This document shows positions 7,183-51,800 of a DNA stretch of 64,000 nt, one piece after another. The notes below the pieces were generated by a model, which did no database searches, had not been told where the DNA came from, and worked only from the letters and a program-made list of their open reading frames with translations. Both the position numbers and the translations under genes were made by a program. Source of the DNA: Ascidia mentula (taxonomy: Eukaryota > Chordata > Ascidiacea > Phlebobranchia > Ascidiidae); the NCBI GenBank assembly GCA_947561715.1, contig OX387200.1, positions 2,501 through 66,500 on the forward strand, read 5' to 3'. Every line of letters begins with the position of its first letter. Position 1 is the first letter of the stretch.

Positions 7183-10100
7183 TTAGAAATCAAAAAAACT
7201 TATTTGAATAATTTCTGAATCTTGACGTACAAGGTTCGGATCGGGAGAATCGAACTTCCTAGCAAGCTTAAAAGTATTTCTGTATCGACGGCCAAGGGGC
7301 TTTCCCCATGCGTTCCTCACCGATTCTTGCCGAACACAGAACAACACGAATAAAAATAACCCCTGCAATGCATAGTACGTCACAGTGGTTAAATCATTCC
7401 ATTTTCACTTAAACAAATAACAATAACGACACTATAGAAACTTGCATGTTACCTGGAGGGAATTGAATACAGTAAAGAGCAGGGAAAAAACAAAATTGCT
7501 TTCATCATCTTTGGTCAAAAGCATGGCAAAACCAAAGACCCAAGGCAGGCCTAACACAAAAATCATACACATGGCTCGACGACCCGCCATAGAAATCCGG
7601 TGAAGGTTGACATGTTGACGAAATACCTGCAAAGGTCAAAGGTTAAATTCAGTTAGAGAAAATAACGTATGTTTGATAACTTTGTGGTAATTCACCTTGG
7701 AGCGAAAAGTTATATTGTACATGATGGTGAAAAATATTACAAAATTAATGAGCAGAATTAAGGCCACCGGAATGACGACAGAATAAAGAAGGGAGTCCAT
7801 TGCGATCCAGCAATATCTCTCGCTTTGGTAGAGGTTGCGATCTGTCACGTTTGCTAATGTAGCTACAAAAGCAGCAGGAAGCACTGAGAAATGAAAGTTG
7901 CCACTATGAAGAAATATATCACGGTTATATCACTGGCGAGCAAGACAATAGAAAAATCCCCGTTAGCGTGATTTCCGCTTCAGTTCAATCGGGGTCACGT
8001 GACAAACCGTCTCCTGGCTGAATCACCGCTGACGTTTATCGGTTAGACTTACACGAACCTTATAACAAACATTACTTCCCCAGTAGGCTGGTGGTTACAT
8101 ACTATATAGAAAACAGTATATACTATATTACATAATTAACAACATTCATGTAACAGCAGGTAAGGCGTTGCGGCTATCTTCCAAACCTCACCATAACACA
8201 ACACACAGGCTACGTAGATGAACGTTTTCTCGTCTCCACTTCCAGTCTTGGCGAGTACCAACGTCCGGAAGAGGAGAACAGATTCTGCCAACATCCAAGC
8301 CCACGAGAGGAGGACTGCGTAATGAAGGATTGTTGTAATAACAAAGCAAAATACTGGAAGATGTGTTCGTTCGATTCCGATGAGAAACGATGAGTTTAGC
8401 AGCACAAGAGAGAAGCAGAGATGGATAAGAATTTGTTGTGGGAGTTTGCTTCTGAGATGTCTGCGTCACAACAATTTAAAGTGACGCGTGACAAATAATT
8501 AACATTTTGAGAACATACTTGAAGTAAAGGTAGGTTACGATTGTGGCTAGCAGGCATGCGATTGAAACTGCGCAGCCCGTAATGGTCAAATATGTCAGGT
8601 AGGGTGGGTGGTAGTACTCGTCTAGACTCTGCAAAAACCAAACTTGATGAAGTTTTCGCCTTGAGTACAAATCGAACAGATCAATATATTTAGAGGGACT
8701 TTGATTGATTTTTTTTATTCAAAACTCTAACTTGTTTCCAAAATACCAAAACTTACCAAAATAACTGCGAAATGAGTCATGTGATTGCACGAACATGTGA
8801 TCAGTGATTGCTCATGCGTAACCTCTTCTTTTCCCTCTACTGTACAGCCTTCATCGGACCAAACAATGTTGCTCGGATCCCAAAACACACATTTTATTGT
8901 TGGTTTTAAAACCTTTCTCTCACCCGAAAGTGCATAACGACCATAAGTAGAGTTGCTACCGCTGGAAAGCGACACCTTGTGGTTCGTAACAACTTTATTT
9001 CGTAGATTTTTCAATTTGGCTCCTTTTACTTCCAACGAAATCACATGACTGATGACGTCGTTTGCCATGTGACGTGAAGGGCCTTCCCCGAATTTGCTTA
9101 TTTTTGATGGATCTGAATGTTCCACAAACAAGGTTGATGTTTTGTATAAAACTATGTTGGCTTGGACGTTGCGCAGATTGTAATCCGTCATTGCTTCCAA
9201 AAGTAATCGCGACGATAGAACGGCACCGCTCGCTTTCTTCGATTCCTTAACGTTCTCTCCCACCACAACAACACTGTCGTCTTTTCTGGCATCACATGTC
9301 AAGTTTTTTATCTCGATTCCGATATTCTTCTGATCTATTTTGAGGTTTCCCTGAAAATTATAAACATTTACGTTTTCCGCACACGAAAGTTACAGAGTTA
9401 ATTGCTAGCGTCGAAACATTATTTTATAGGAAATCTTTTATGGTTCCGAACCTGTGACACGTTGTATTGATTAATAACCGTTTCCACGGCGACGATGACG
9501 TCGTGTGATGACGTTGCATCAAGTATATCAGCGGAAACTTCGAGAAGATCGTTAAGTTTGCTGGATATCTGGTTAACGGCTTTAGAATCAACACAGCAGC
9601 CTTGGTATTGAAGGGTGACAATCCGATGCACCAGTTGTTTGGCTTCTTTGGTCGTGTAAGTTCTTGGGTCTGCATACAGTTTGAACAATGTGAAGTTTGC
9701 AGCAATTCCACGAGTAATTTGCATGTTTGTTTACATTAAGTTGGCATGTTTCTAGAAATATTTTTTAACCTGTAAATCCAAATACAAGTAAATAACCGCG
9801 ATCGACCGAAACAACATGCATAGTTTGAAACATCCTAGAATGCAGCACAGGAATAACCTTTGTCTTGGCATATAAAGTGCTTGTTCAAATCACAGTAAGT
9901 ATCGTCCCACTGCCACTTGTATGCCCGCCAAAGCTGGATACAAAATGCGTCAGGTGTATTCGGTTCGTTCGTAACCCAGTTCGTGTAACTACATGAAAAG
10001 GAGTTTGGTTAGATTCGAACGAAACCATCCAAAAATGTAAGCTGTTGTAACTTTAAACCGCACCACAATTTCGTTCTTATGGCGGGTTATTATAGTAATA

Positions 10101-10631
10101 TTTACTTCGTTGCATTAAGCTGTGCTGAATTGCTGATCCAATATACCGGTCTTGGGTGCGAAGTATTTTTCAATTTCAAACCAATCCATACTCCCTCGTT
10201 TACTTTCGATCTGTCCCAGGGCATCGAGCTGTTTTGCAAGATTTTGTACAAAAACAAACTTGTTTTCTGATTTCGAGGCTCTGTGAGAATGGAACCAGTT
10301 TGCGCGCAGATACTCGCACTTTCCGTAAAAGATTTTGGGTCCTTGGACAACCTGTATCTCATTCCTTGGTTTGTAGCAAGTAATTGAAAGGTCTCATCTG
10401 GTCCCAAATCGATGCAATTTGCTGCAAATGAAAGTGGATTTGGCAACTGGTGACATATCGTCTGCTATGACACTTTATTCAAAACACAGCTTCAGAACGA
10501 TCGAATATAAGAGAAACATTGGCTGTCGGACGAGTTCTACACTTACATCAAAACACTCAAAACACAAAAAATTTCTTACCGGAAATTCCAAATATTATTA
10601 TGGAAACAACCACACTCCTTGTATGCTGCAT
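7183..10631 (-). CDS. Adhesion GPCR with N-terminal C-type lectin domain
   Basis: Ten exons on the minus strand join in frame to 740 residues: 10580-10631, 10106-10421, 9858-9988, 9452-9669, 8757-9350, 8519-8628, 8192-8451, 7696-7883, 7453-7626 and 7183-7362. Each intron has GT/AG ends and matching phase. The chosen ATG is followed by a hydrophobic signal peptide (residues 1-17). Residues 18-166 form a C-type lectin fold: WIGL at 96-99, EPN at 131-133 (the mannose-type sugar/calcium triplet), WDD at 150-152, and cysteines at 56, 139, 155 and 163. Residues 167-437 look like a GAIN domain ending in a classical GPS: C393, W396, W403, C408, C425 and C427, with HMT at 429-431, so self-cleavage is expected between M430 and T431. 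This would leave a tethered agonist starting THFAVIL. Seven membrane spans follow (about 446-695), with the adhesion/secretin-type FNSLQG at TM7 and a short cytoplasmic tail. The family couples adhesion to G-protein signalling at the plasma membrane; ligand and G protein are unknown. The start of the fourth exon (9669) is the least certain boundary. Confidence 0.92.
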
Positions 10632-30700: not shown

Positions 30701-31571
30701 CGATCGTTCACGAACAACTTTGCAGCAGAGTTCACAGAATTTTGTATGATTGCTCACAAGTAAACTCATAAAGCTTAAACATGTCTAAATATATAATTGC
30801 GTATTTAGAAAGCACGTTTGAGCTTTGAAATGTCCCCTTCTCAAATGAAATATTATGTACACTTGAAGAAGGGCAAGAGGTACAGTTTATTTCCCATCAA
30901 TTATTTCATGTTGACTTTGTGTATCACAAAATTAGCAACGACTTTGAGTCACCGCAGAACAAGTGAACTCAAAAACAAAAGAAGGGATAAAATGGCGAGC
31001 GAAGAACGTCGGCGATCGGCGTCGCGAGGGCGCTGGAAAAAAAGGCGAAAGTGTTCTGAGCGCAAAGGCAAAGTCTGTGTGGATGGCCGACATATCGACA
31101 ATTCCACACCAGTGGTCAGGACTACAGATCACAAAACAGTTGCAACCAGGGAAATGTCTCTAGTATCTTTCAGCAGGTTATAATTTATGTGCAGAATATG
31201 GTTTGTTTGCTTCCGCATGCAAAAGTTAATTATGTGGGAGTTGGAATATTTTTCGATGGACGTAAAGTCAGTGGGCACTGGTTTCAATGGTTTAAACCGA
31301 ACTACACAGGGTAGGTTTTTAGGTGGCGCGTCACTCGCAAGCTTTGTCAGTATCGCCTTGGCGGCGGGGATGGCGACGGCTCCGGTGGTAGACAGAGTGA
31401 GAAACTGTTTGAGGAAATAAACGATGAGTTTACTTTGCAGGTTGTTTCTACATAGTTGGCTTTCACTGTGCAAAATTTGTTGTAAATTTCAATTGTGATT
31501 GAAAATGCAAACAAGCTAAAAATACTTGATTAATAAAAAACAACTTCAAAGTGAATATCTGACACGTAGTT

Positions 31572-46282
<14,711 letters not shown>

Positions 46283-46726: not shown

Positions 46727-48470
46727 CATCTACAACCACACGAGTATGAAATGCACAAACCCCCAAAGAAACGGTTAAATGGAAACCTAGTGTTTGGAAT
46801 AGAGATGATGAAAATGAACCAAGACAATAAAAAAAATCAGCTACAGAAATTCTGGACCTAAAAAATGCTGCACAATAAAAAAAGAGAATTTTACAGAATT
46901 TGTATTTGCAATAAACTACAGATCCCGTAGAACAGAAACTAGTGATGTTCTGAAGCAGATGCGACGAAACCCAAAATAACAAAGCAGAGAAATTCAAACT
47001 AGAAGGAAGTTTAAGACAGATTGCAATGTGGCCAATTCTTTCAAAGATTTATTAAAATTACTTGAAAAACTTTCCCGTCTCTTTTTATTTAAAGTTAAGA
47101 ACCGATTGATTTGTGTTAAAAATGTGTTTCACAATAGGTCGTTGCTTTTTTTTGTTGCAGAACATGACAGTAAAATATATAGAGAGCCCCTGTCCCCCCC
47201 AGCATCCAACACAAAGCAGCAACCTTACAGCATACTTGAATGTGCCATACGCTAAATAGATTACGCACCAAATCGTTTGAGTGTCTTTATCACAAATCTT
47301 GTTGTCAGCGAATGCTCGTTCATCCAATATGATTTGCGTTAAAATAACAAGAAACAGATTTTTCTGACGTATGGCAGCTATTAGGCGAGGCTGTGATATT
47401 GGCCCCAATCTGTCCCTGGCAGTTACGATTATCGCCCAAATGGGACTAGATTGGAAATATATTGATCGTTAAACGATGCCACATTGTTAAATAGAGCCAC
47501 AAGGACGGGTGGGAGGCGCCTAGTTTTGATCCCACATACGGGGAATGGGAAGTTTATCAATCCCCTCAATATGTCGCCTCCTGTATTCCTCTTGCTCGCC
47601 ACAAAGCAACATATTTACCAGTGGATTTAAGCAATGGTGCAAAGGTATATGAAGCAGGCGCCTTAATGTCGCGGCAATTTTGATTTGGATATTTCACCGG
47701 GAGCGGGCAACCCTCCCTGGGAAACACGTGCCAATTTATTTAGGCGCCTGTGAGGAGAAAAGGAATCCGTCTCCCTTCGCACGGTTTAGGTCTCCATCAT
47801 TCTGGAACGTTTAAATGCTCACCTTTGCAGAAGTGTCAGGCCCAGAAACTTCGTTTTCACTGCGATGGAAAATTCGTAATATATCACAAGTGCAGGAAAT
47901 TGAAAGAAGGTTCCAAGTTCACCGCAGTCCACCAACAAAAGGTTTATATGGCCGACGTTGACAGACGAAATAGTAACTATATGTGAACCCAATACAGGTG
48001 AAATGTACACGTTGATAACAAGAACATGTTTCAAAATGTTGCTACTTTATTTGAAAGCGTATTTGCATTAGACATTATTTCGCGTGCTGTGAAAACCACC
48101 CAGTACATCCAGAAGTAACGCAAATATTTCCCGCATACTTTACAACACAATAAGTCGTCGTTCATGCAAACAAGGTGATAATGACTGGTCATGTTTGGAG
48201 TTAGGAAGTCAGGCTTGTTAACATTTTTATATGTAGACGCCTGAGTGTGACATCAAGCACTTAATTACACAGAGCCACACCTCCCGTTAACTGTTTTGCC
48301 GCCGAAAGGTAAGGACCGTAGTAGTTGGTTGTAAAGTTAAGTTGGCTCAGTAAAATATATCAAGTTCTGAGTCAACTTCACATCAAACAAGTGATTATCA
48401 CAGCTTTAGTGGCAGGTTACCCTAACCCCCGGCAGTAGCACAATAAATAATTATCATTTCATGTCGGTTG

Positions 48471-48826
48471 GTCCACACTTTGCCACAAATATCCACACTT
48501 TGCTACAAATATCAACACTTTGCCATAAATATCCACACTTTGCTACAAATATCCACACTTTGCCACAAATATCCACAGTTTGCCACAAATATCCACACTT
48601 TGCTACAAAAATCCACAGTTTGCTACAAATATCCACAGTTTGCTACAAATATCCACACTTTGCTACAAATACCCACACTTTGCCACAAATATCCACATTT
48701 TGCTACAAATATCCACACTTTGCTACAAATATCCACACTTTGCTACAAATATCCACACTTTGCCACAAATATCCACAGTTTGCTACAAATATCCACACTT
48801 TGCTACAAATATCCACTCTTTGCTAC
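48471..48826. repeat. 20-bp minisatellite, about 18 copies
   Basis: TTTGCCACAAATATCCACAC repeats with a strict 20-bp period. Most variation is at two sites: GCCACA/GCTACA and CACACTT/CACAGTT. The unit has no stop in any of the three plus-strand frames, so three long overlapping open frames run through it. They share one rotating 20-residue repeat (containing HFATNIHTLLQIS). No promoter or splice context supports translation. Confidence 0.97.
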
Positions 48827-51800
48827 GTATCAAGTTTGCAAACAGGAAGCAAAAATGCAAGAAAAAAACTGCGGACTAATCCAACAAAATACAGAAAGTT
48901 TGTGTCACAAGATGTGCGTTTATTGCATTGACAATATGCCTGAAAGACTCGCAGTAGCAAGTCCCCAAATAGTCTGATATGATTTGTTTTATTTTGGAAA
49001 TCCGACGAGTGAATAAAATACAATTCTTGTTACAATTTCATTGACCCACTTTACCAAGCATCCGTTCATTCCACGGAGACTGAAAATCATAAAATAAAAT
49101 ATGCTATGCGTTCAATGATATTAACTAATTAGAGAAGTAACCGTATGCATTTGCTCTACACCAGGTTTACGGAGAAGACTTAAAGTGTGATTGGAACCAC
49201 CATCGCTGGGGTGGAAGAGCCGACATCAGTAAACAATCGACGGCGTCAATAGACAAGTAGGACACGTGCGGTGGATTGGAGTGGACTCTCATCTCTCCTT
49301 CTGTCGGACGATTAGGGGTTGCATACGACGCTCAAAGTGTCGGTGAGAGGCGGCGAGAGGCCACTCAGGCAGTTTAGCGCCCTAACACGCAGACTTCTGG
49401 CGCCAGGGTGTCACAGGCAAGTCCGCTCAACAGTACGCCATGCATAACCTTTATCATTCCCGGCCAATTCCATTTCAGGTGTGAGGCAACAGCACAACTG
49501 GACAACGAATGTTCAAGCGAGAATGTTTGAAGTTGATTAGATTCGTGGTTTCATATCACACTGCAATAACATTTACTTAAACCACGTTCTACTTGTTGAG
49601 GAAAAGCTCACAGCAACAAAATAAATCTCCGCTGTGAATCATTCAGTTGATTTATTCACCTTTAACTCAACAAAGACGCCGCCGTACACGAAGATTTACG
49701 CCGGCCTCCGTAAGGTTACGATTATTTGCTTGTTCTGTTCGACGTTCCCTTGACACGACCGCAAACCGATATTAATTACAGCTGCAAACATGTGGGCGGG
49801 GGTCGACGTTTAAAACCCGAGATCCAACAAACGAAATGTAGGCTTCATAACACGGCGCACGGAAGAAGCGGCCGATGTAATTCTAAATATTTGTCCTGAG
49901 CCACGCCGCGGTGTTATGACGTAACAGGCAGTTCGCGGCTTGGGCAATCGAATTGTCTGTGGCGTTCGACAGTTCGGCGCCGTTCTGCGTTGACGAGAGG
50001 CAGCAGAGAGAGTAACATTGACGAGGAACGCTTCTGGGTATATTTGCACACATTCTGTAAGATTCTATCTGTTTTGCGTTGCAGTCCCTTGTGAACCAGG
50101 ATTTGTGTTAAGTTTCCAAATTGGTGACAAAATACATTTGGTCAGAACTCAAGGACCTGCAAACAAAGTCCAAGGAATCCTTTTTGTAGACATTCTAACT
50201 CTAAACATTCATTTTTCTGCAAAACCCAATTGCATTTAGTTGCTTTCTTGAACAAATGCCTCAAGGAGTCCAGCAACCAGTTTTGACCAGAATGGAACCA
50301 CAAATAATTATGGGTTCCTAAACGATTTATGTTTCTTTAAATACTGCCTGAAATTTTTGCTGCCTTTTCGACTTAATTTTCAACAAGACCTACAACCAAG
50401 TAATTAAGCTGACTAAATACGCAAAAAAAAAACTAATTCGCCTCAGTAACCGCCCCATACATTCCTGCTCATTCAACAGAAGGTTTGACCTTCATGCATT
50501 CCTGGAATTTTAAGTCACATGTTTATTGCGAACAATGCATATTTTTCCTTTAAATCTATCAATTCCTACACAGGTTAAACTCACCGATACAAAGATGATT
50601 GTGCTGGTGTGGCGTAATTCCACATCACAGATTCAATAAGCATGAATAAATTAAGTGAAATTAAAGTTGGAATTGGCGGTTGAGGGTGTGTTTGATCACC
50701 GCGCGTTTATTGAGCCTACTTGGCGTCGTTGAGGCAGACGTGGCGTCCGGTGGGATTCGAACCCTAAACCTAATGATCCGCCAAAAGTCGATGTTTGTAT
50801 GGGGAGTGCTTGGCACGTGGGAAATGTGAACGACCCTTCACTTGATTAAAACCGACGATGGCTGTGGTTGCGGCGCCAAACCGACGCCGATGCGAACACT
50901 CGACGGACGAGGTGTAAAGGAGGACCCTTGAAGCGAACGCGCAAGCGACGATCAGTGCAGATTATCGCCTCTGGATCTAATATTCGCGTTCCGATATAAC
51001 GAGGTGATGACGGGAGAGAAGCACGCTTGTTGGTCTACCAAGCTTGTTTACACTCGTTCGAGGGATCCAAACGCTCTAGTACTGCTCAATGGCACTTATT
51101 TACGACAGCCTATGAATATCTGTGAACATTTCCTAACTGAAGGGTTATTAATGGGATAATACGACGATGAAATTGGGATCCAGGTCATTTAATTTATTTA
51201 ACCTTCCCAGAAATATAAAGTGTTCGGTTAAAAATGTTCTTTGCGCACGAAAATTTTTAAATTTATCTTTAGGTGATGTCAATTAGGGACAACCGGTGAA
51301 GTTCTTCTTATGTAAGACTGCAGCCACCACAAAAGGAAAACTCTTTGGAAACGATAACGAATGAAACTCTCATACGATTAGAGATAGGAAAGAATATAAT
51401 GATTATTCATACGTTTTTATGCCCGTGTATAAAGTTACATCAAAAGAAAGTCCGTCATTGACGTTTGTTCATGGAAACAGTGGACAAAATTTCACCCAAC
51501 ATGAATTTTTTATGCAAAGATCATCTTTGTCTGATCACCACTGGGGAAATGTTTCAACTCAAAAGGTTGGAAAAACTTTTATCAAAACCAGAAATTGTTC
51601 TCAAGTCCAGCGCCCACACAATAGAATTCCTTCAAATCATTCTTAAGTTAGCTAGAAAAATATTTGAACAAAATTACCCCTTAACCCTACCTGAACGCCG
51701 GTAAGCCACAATTACAATTCCATCATGATTTATTCCCGAAGCGAAACAAGTCAATGGAAAATTCACATCTGCAAATAATTTTGTTGAAAAATTACAATTA

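Follow-up and report, generated by a model that had tools for sequence, protein, structure and literature searches.

A predicted adhesion GPCR with a C-type lectin head in the ascidian Ascidia mentula

A gene of the solitary ascidian Ascidia mentula encodes a predicted protein in which a single C-type lectin domain precedes a GPS and a seven-helix core of the secretin/adhesion class. Our preferred reading, to which we give a probability of about 0.7, is that this is one gene for one adhesion GPCR, which acquired its lectin head by module insertion, cleaves itself and is activated through its stalk when a ligand pulls on the head. This places a lectin-headed adhesion GPCR among the tunicates, sister group of the vertebrates, and a single genome has two cases that look independent of each other. 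Receptors of this kind would link the recognition of surface glycans or matrix straight to G-protein signalling, which is relevant to how filter feeders sense microbes, self tissue and tunic.

Gene model and domain architecture

The window, that is, the whole stretch of 64,000 nucleotides that was analysed, corresponds to C67:2501-66500 on a chromosome 4 contig. The gene lies on the minus strand and has ten exons, with its ATG at 10631, a stop codon ending at 7183, 2232 coding bases and 743 amino acids. All nine introns are GT-AG and in phase (phases 1, 2, 1, 0, 0, 2, 1, 0, 0), and no internal stop or frameshift is present. The first-pass annotation had given exactly the same coordinates, 7183-10631, and ten exons in consistent phase; only its length of 740 residues needs correction. 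The features are as follows, in coding order.

10580-10631, minus strand: exon 1, start codon and probable signal peptide, residues 1-18, from hydropathy
10106-10421, minus strand: exon 2, opening part of the C-type lectin domain, residues 18-123, with a phase-1 intron before it and a phase-2 intron after it
9858-9988, minus strand: exon 3, remainder of the C-type lectin domain, residues 123-167, carrying EPN at 131-133 and WDD at 150-152, followed by a phase-1 intron
9670-9857, minus strand: intron 3, 188 bases, the junction that carries the one-gene reading
9452-9669, minus strand: exon 4, probable helical part of a GAIN domain, residues 167-239, from position and profile
8757-9350, minus strand: exon 5, probable GAIN subdomain B and the GPS, residues 240-437, with predicted cleavage at H429-M430/T431 and stalk THFAVIL
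8519-8628, minus strand: exon 6, linker and TM1, residues 438-474
8192-8460, minus strand: exon 7, TM2 to the start of TM4, residues 474-564
7696-7883, minus strand: exon 8, end of TM4, extracellular loop 2 with Cys-Trp, and TM5, residues 564-626
7453-7626, minus strand: exon 9, TM6 and the start of TM7, residues 627-684
7183-7362, minus strand: exon 10, remainder of TM7, cytoplasmic tail and stop codon, from residue 685 onward

A Pfam scan of the 743-residue protein (E up to 1) returned three families only, each exceeding its curated cut-offs. These are Lectin_C (PF00059, residues 46-164, E 1.4e-12), GPS (PF01825, residues 392-436, E 2.2e-11) and 7tm_2 (PF00002, the secretin/adhesion 7TM family, residues 448-687, E 3.1e-40). 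They stand in the order expected of an adhesion GPCR that carries a C-type lectin fold, which is what had been proposed, along with an intact GPS followed by seven membrane spans. The GAIN domain proposed between lectin and GPS is the part of that architecture for which the Pfam model stayed silent. The NCBIfam scan matched no family, with little expected from this bacterial and archaeal library.

Exon 1 has a hydrophobic core, VVVSIIIFGISA, with a mean hydropathy of 2.77 over 12 residues, and probably encodes a signal peptide, judged by this hydropathy. The Lectin_C match spans the junction of exons 2 and 3 and the 7tm_2 match spans four junctions, so homology backs those joins. The junction of exons 3 and 4, from the lectin to the GAIN part, is the one join without homology support. 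An extra exon between TM4 and TM5, suggested by a short open stretch in the 308-base intron at 7884-8191, was rejected because the direct join already yields a loop typical of adhesion GPCRs.

Chromosome ends can be unstable, and the gene falls inside the first 13.2 kb of contig C67, a position that would suit a decaying copy or an assembly artefact. We consider either very improbable, given 2232 coding bases free of stops and frameshifts and the intact state of the GPS, the lectin cysteines and the 7TM match. The assembly quality argues in the same direction, the published assembly being reported at 197.0 Mb in 95 scaffolds with QV 64.9 (PMC11109543). The genome searched here comprised 195.8 Mb in 79 contigs.

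One gene or two

As an alternative, exons 1-3 may encode a small lectin for secretion and exons 4-10 an adhesion GPCR of their own, whether as two neighbouring genes or as alternative transcripts. Reading through intron 3 gives a lectin-only product that stops after GYSCAAF, and exon 4 is preceded at short distance by an in-frame ATG (MQITRGIAANF...), both of which favour this possibility. However, the hydrophobic stretch at this alternative start is weak, with a mean of 1.14 against 2.77 for exon 1, and the phases of exons 3 and 4 agree. A second gene model with the same domain order is also present in the genome.

None of six polyadenylation-type hexamers sought in the 188 bases of intron 3 was found there. 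This counts against two genes as weak evidence, because introns 1 and 5 contain AATAAA and the 183 bases past the gene's own stop, inspected by eye, do not. The donor of intron 3 (AAAG/GTTATT) is weak, as is that of intron 4 (CAG/GTTCGG). Overall, a split into two genes or transcripts appears unlikely, and the single-gene reading, in which the ten exons would be spliced into one messenger, is retained below.

GPS, stalk and seven-helix core

Among solved structures, the GPS-7TM part matches ADGRL3 first (E 1.3e-40), then ADGRG2 and ADGRG6. Further matches are to other adhesion GPCRs and, more weakly, to peptide-hormone receptors. With several adhesion GPCRs as best matches, the protein belongs to this class but to no clear human subfamily. 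For a tree of the TM2-TM4 exon, 31 loci were searched and 30 matched, 8 of these 30 being dropped for a match under 60 residues, and the tree had 24 rows. Only 1 of its 19 inner branches was starred and it gave no placement of the window receptor, for which no tree position is claimed because the tree is poorly supported and the receptor's row is very long.

The GPS contains the cleavage motif H-x-T/S as H429-M430-T431. In the alignment with ADGRL3 the GPS and stalk, CSCNHMTHFAVIL, stand against CSCNHLTNFAVLM, and ADGRF1 can be aligned there as well. The alignment with ADGRL3 fits cleavage at M430/T431 and a tethered agonist. Self-cleavage at this bond is thus likely, with THFAVIL as the predicted agonist, and the sequence supports the tethered agonist that the first-pass annotation had put forward.

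Under the preferred reading, the GAIN region would most likely cleave itself between M430 and T431, leaving two joined fragments at the cell surface. The lectin head would be held by a ligand, either a glycan or a protein, belonging to a neighbouring cell, the tunic or a microbe. A pull on the held head would then expose the THFAVIL stalk, and the stalk would activate the seven-helix core and a G protein. The compact head, composed of a single lectin domain and a GAIN-like region, makes this receptor tractable for tethered-agonist tests with a defined ligand.

The region before the GPS

The Pfam GAIN model (PF16489) matches neither the window protein nor the protein of the second gene, on chromosome 3. 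It is silent across the whole genome and in 14 control genomes as well, so its silence on the window protein is uninformative and does not show absence. A profile built from the GAIN-like regions of four receptors of the same genome matched residues 505-775 of ADGRG6 (6v55_A) with E 7e-4, and this match covers positions 27-271 of the profile's 271. Of its 23 adhesion-GPCR matches the other 22 reach the GPS end only, and 2 of the 25 matches in all are to unrelated proteins. An AlphaFold model of exon 5 alone had a mean pLDDT of 35, too low for use. A GAIN domain ahead of the GPS is likely on this profile match, though not established.

Lectin head and its possible ligands

The lectin domain has four cysteines (C56, C139, C155 and C163) in what we take to be the canonical C-type lectin pattern. 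EPN is found at residues 131-133, and the position of WND reads WDD (residues 150-152). In mannose-binding protein, calcium is bound by the EPN and WND residues together with a glutamate between them. In an alignment with the mosquito lectin mosGCTL-3, Ala137 stands opposite the glutamate. Sugar binding with calcium is therefore possible but not assured, because EPN is present but WND is replaced by WDD and the glutamate position by Ala137, and the alanine would weaken it. The earlier suggestion that the EPN/WDD pair points to calcium-dependent glycan sensing thus keeps its EPN and its acidic WDD, and loses force at the altered WND and at Ala137.

The same residues bear on a second alternative, in which the receptor is real and its lectin binds a protein or lipid without calcium, as an adhesion head rather than a glycan sensor. 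Both Ala137 and WDD favour this, and so does the chromosome-3 gene, which has RPT for EPN and WSD for WND, so that the sugar motifs are not conserved between the two receptors. On the other side, EPN and an acidic WDD are retained here, and all three of the other ascidian lectin loci inspected (L044, L045 and L046) have EPN with either WDD or WND. We hold a calcium-independent adhesion head to be a serious possibility, at a little under even odds. The preferred reading of a stalk-activated receptor accommodates a glycan or a protein as ligand.

Origin of the lectin head

Exons 2 and 3, which encode the lectin domain, are flanked on both sides by phase-1 introns. A module with such borders can be inserted with the frame intact, as exon shuffling predicts. 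Elsewhere in the genome, the best four matches of the lectin exons cover the domain's second half at 39-41% identity. Of these four loci, three were inspected. L046, on chromosome 9, is like the window gene when read by eye: a phase-2 intron falls a few residues ahead of its W..xEPN segment, and the domain is followed by a phase-1 donor. L045 lacks that internal intron, and the acceptor of L044 is uncertain. By the intron pattern of L046, the lectin module is similar to at least one lectin gene resident in this ascidian. A phase 1-1 module of this kind was probably inserted behind the signal-peptide exon of an adhesion GPCR.

A second lectin-headed receptor on chromosome 3

A gene model on chromosome 3 (C52:14928224-14923467, minus strand) has 14 exons and encodes 814 amino acids, with all 13 introns GT-AG and in phase. 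Its protein matches Lectin_C (E 1.5e-13), GPS (8.7e-10) and 7tm_2 (5.9e-34) in Pfam. It shares with the window gene a signal-peptide-like start, a lectin domain between phase-1 introns, a GPS and a 7TM core. In contrast to the window gene, its lectin occupies one exon and carries RPT and WSD at the two motif positions, a Thr-rich linker follows, and the stretch before the GPS is longer. The two proteins are 29% identical over window residues 330-709 and 23% over 33-175.

The TM2-TM4 exon of the chromosome-3 gene shares 54-55% identity with its counterparts in two neighbouring receptor genes. A small lectin profile run over about 8.3 and 5.3 kb upstream of these neighbours gave nothing convincing as a lectin exon (best E 1.6). 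As a control, a profile built without the chromosome-3 domain recovered that domain at 2e-9. A profile built without the window domain recovered exon 3 (3e-9) and missed exon 2 (E 1.7), so the lectin profile can miss the first half of a domain. A search with the chromosome-3 lectin domain gave 14 matches at E up to 0.1, and the window gene was absent from them.

These comparisons suggest that the two lectin heads were captured separately, because the chromosome-3 lectin is a single exon without EPN, the neighbouring receptors show no convincing lectin exon and the search with the chromosome-3 domain did not return the window gene. They do not prove separate capture, as the neighbours may have lost a lectin and the TM2-TM4 tree is poorly supported.

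Comparison with known receptors

Adhesion GPCRs with C-type lectin domains have been published for amphioxus and placozoans. Nordstrom et al. 2008 (PMC2246102) count Lectin C-type as one of the novel domains at the N termini of amphioxus adhesion GPCRs. In Trichoplax sp. H2, Kamm et al. 2019 (PMC6321704) assign 28 of the 36 receptors with C-type lectin-like domains (CTLDs) to the secretin/adhesion GPCRs, and one amphioxus receptor was the only other case known to those authors. The first-pass annotation had named a wide prior description of this architecture in other animals as a point against it; these two reports (PMC2246102, PMC6321704) go part of that way, though not to a wide description, and leave less novelty than had been implied. 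The design is known but rare, and its ascidian members appear new.

Like the window protein, the Branchiostoma floridae receptor comes from a chordate and has a C-type lectin domain at the N terminus of an adhesion GPCR (PMC2246102). Its lectin is described as accompanied by other extracellular domains (Kamm et al., PMC6321704), whereas here the lectin is the sole Pfam domain before the GPS. In Trichoplax sp. H2 one or more lectin domains likewise form the extracellular part of a secretin/adhesion 7TM protein, but the 28 receptors reported there compare with at least two here (PMC6321704).

The latrophilins and polycystin-1 share parts of this design. The latrophilins (ADGRL) are close in the core, ADGRL3 being the best solved-structure match of the window 7TM, GPS and stalk, but the window protein has no galactose-binding lectin, olfactomedin or hormone-receptor domain in Pfam. 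Identity with a latrophilin was rejected on the absence of an RBL/SUEL or olfactomedin domain in that scan. Polycystin-1 combines a C-type lectin and GAIN/GPS in one membrane protein, with 11 spans (PMC9672506), whereas the window protein matches 7tm_2 and no PLAT, PKD or LRR domain in Pfam. With PLAT absent and 7tm_2 present, identity with polycystin-1 was rejected.

As for tunicates, the Ciona repertoire published in 2008 counts 30 adhesion GPCRs, and 21 of the 24 unclassified ones have a GPS domain only. Its main text uses "lectin" once, in a sentence on vertebrates. The word is absent from three further GPCR papers (PMC12716839, PMC4302439 and PMC8584163), and among the open-licence papers listed by our literature searches none reported a tunicate lectin-headed adhesion GPCR.

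A wider reading would be repeated evolution. Two unrelated lectin modules would have entered this genome, each between phase-1 introns behind the signal peptides of different adhesion GPCRs, in parallel to placozoans and amphioxus, and would have given glycan-triggered G-protein receptors unused by the vertebrate line. We offer this tentatively, as an idea with roughly one chance in three of being right.

Frequency in the genome and further observations

Lectin-headed receptors were counted as GPS sites with a lectin match upstream on the same strand within 100 kb. At least two were found among the 150 GPS sites listed (150 of 218 candidates scored), and the downstream control gave 0. The lectin set had 167 entries: 150 listed matches (150 of 770 candidates scored), 15 with E <0.1 from the lectin-exon search and 2 from the chromosome-3 domain search. 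One place occurs twice among these entries, and two are the window gene's own exons, which are absent from the 150-entry list and entered through the lectin-exon search. Two is thus a lower bound for lectin-headed receptors here and not a total.

At least 150 GPS sites exceed the Pfam cut-off among the candidates scored (150 of 218), and 98 of the 150 lie in clusters of at least three sites, each less than 25 kb from the next. The clusters include 29 sites on C2:1.51-1.80 Mb and 15 on C69:3.19-3.32 Mb. A large expansion of adhesion GPCRs in Ascidia mentula is likely, compared with the 30 reported for Ciona in 2008. Two adhesion GPCRs on C67, L042 (C67:5518000-5527000) and L043 (C67:19683000-19692000), have a GAIN-like region, GPS and 7TM in a single open frame of 546 and 677 amino acids, respectively, against ten exons in the window gene.

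Most of the 150 listed C-type lectin matches lie densely on C1:22.4-27.6 Mb, which suggests a large lectin expansion on chromosome 1. At C52:10.73-10.85 Mb and C1:26.60-26.63 Mb, open frames with similar scores, mostly spaced at about 1887 and 663 bases, form regular arrays whose lectin scores are at chance level (E ~2). These are tandem arrays of something other than lectin.

Lastly, 10 of the 21 window frames of at least 115 amino acids were scanned with Pfam. On the plus strand, at 31563-31997, an open frame matches a T-box domain at its beginning (PF00907, profile positions 1-27, E 1.5e-6) and is presumably one exon of a T-box gene. The plus-strand region at 48410-48977 has long open frames overlapping in more than one reading frame, with weak, sub-cut-off matches to a protelomerase domain, and is probably repetitive sequence.
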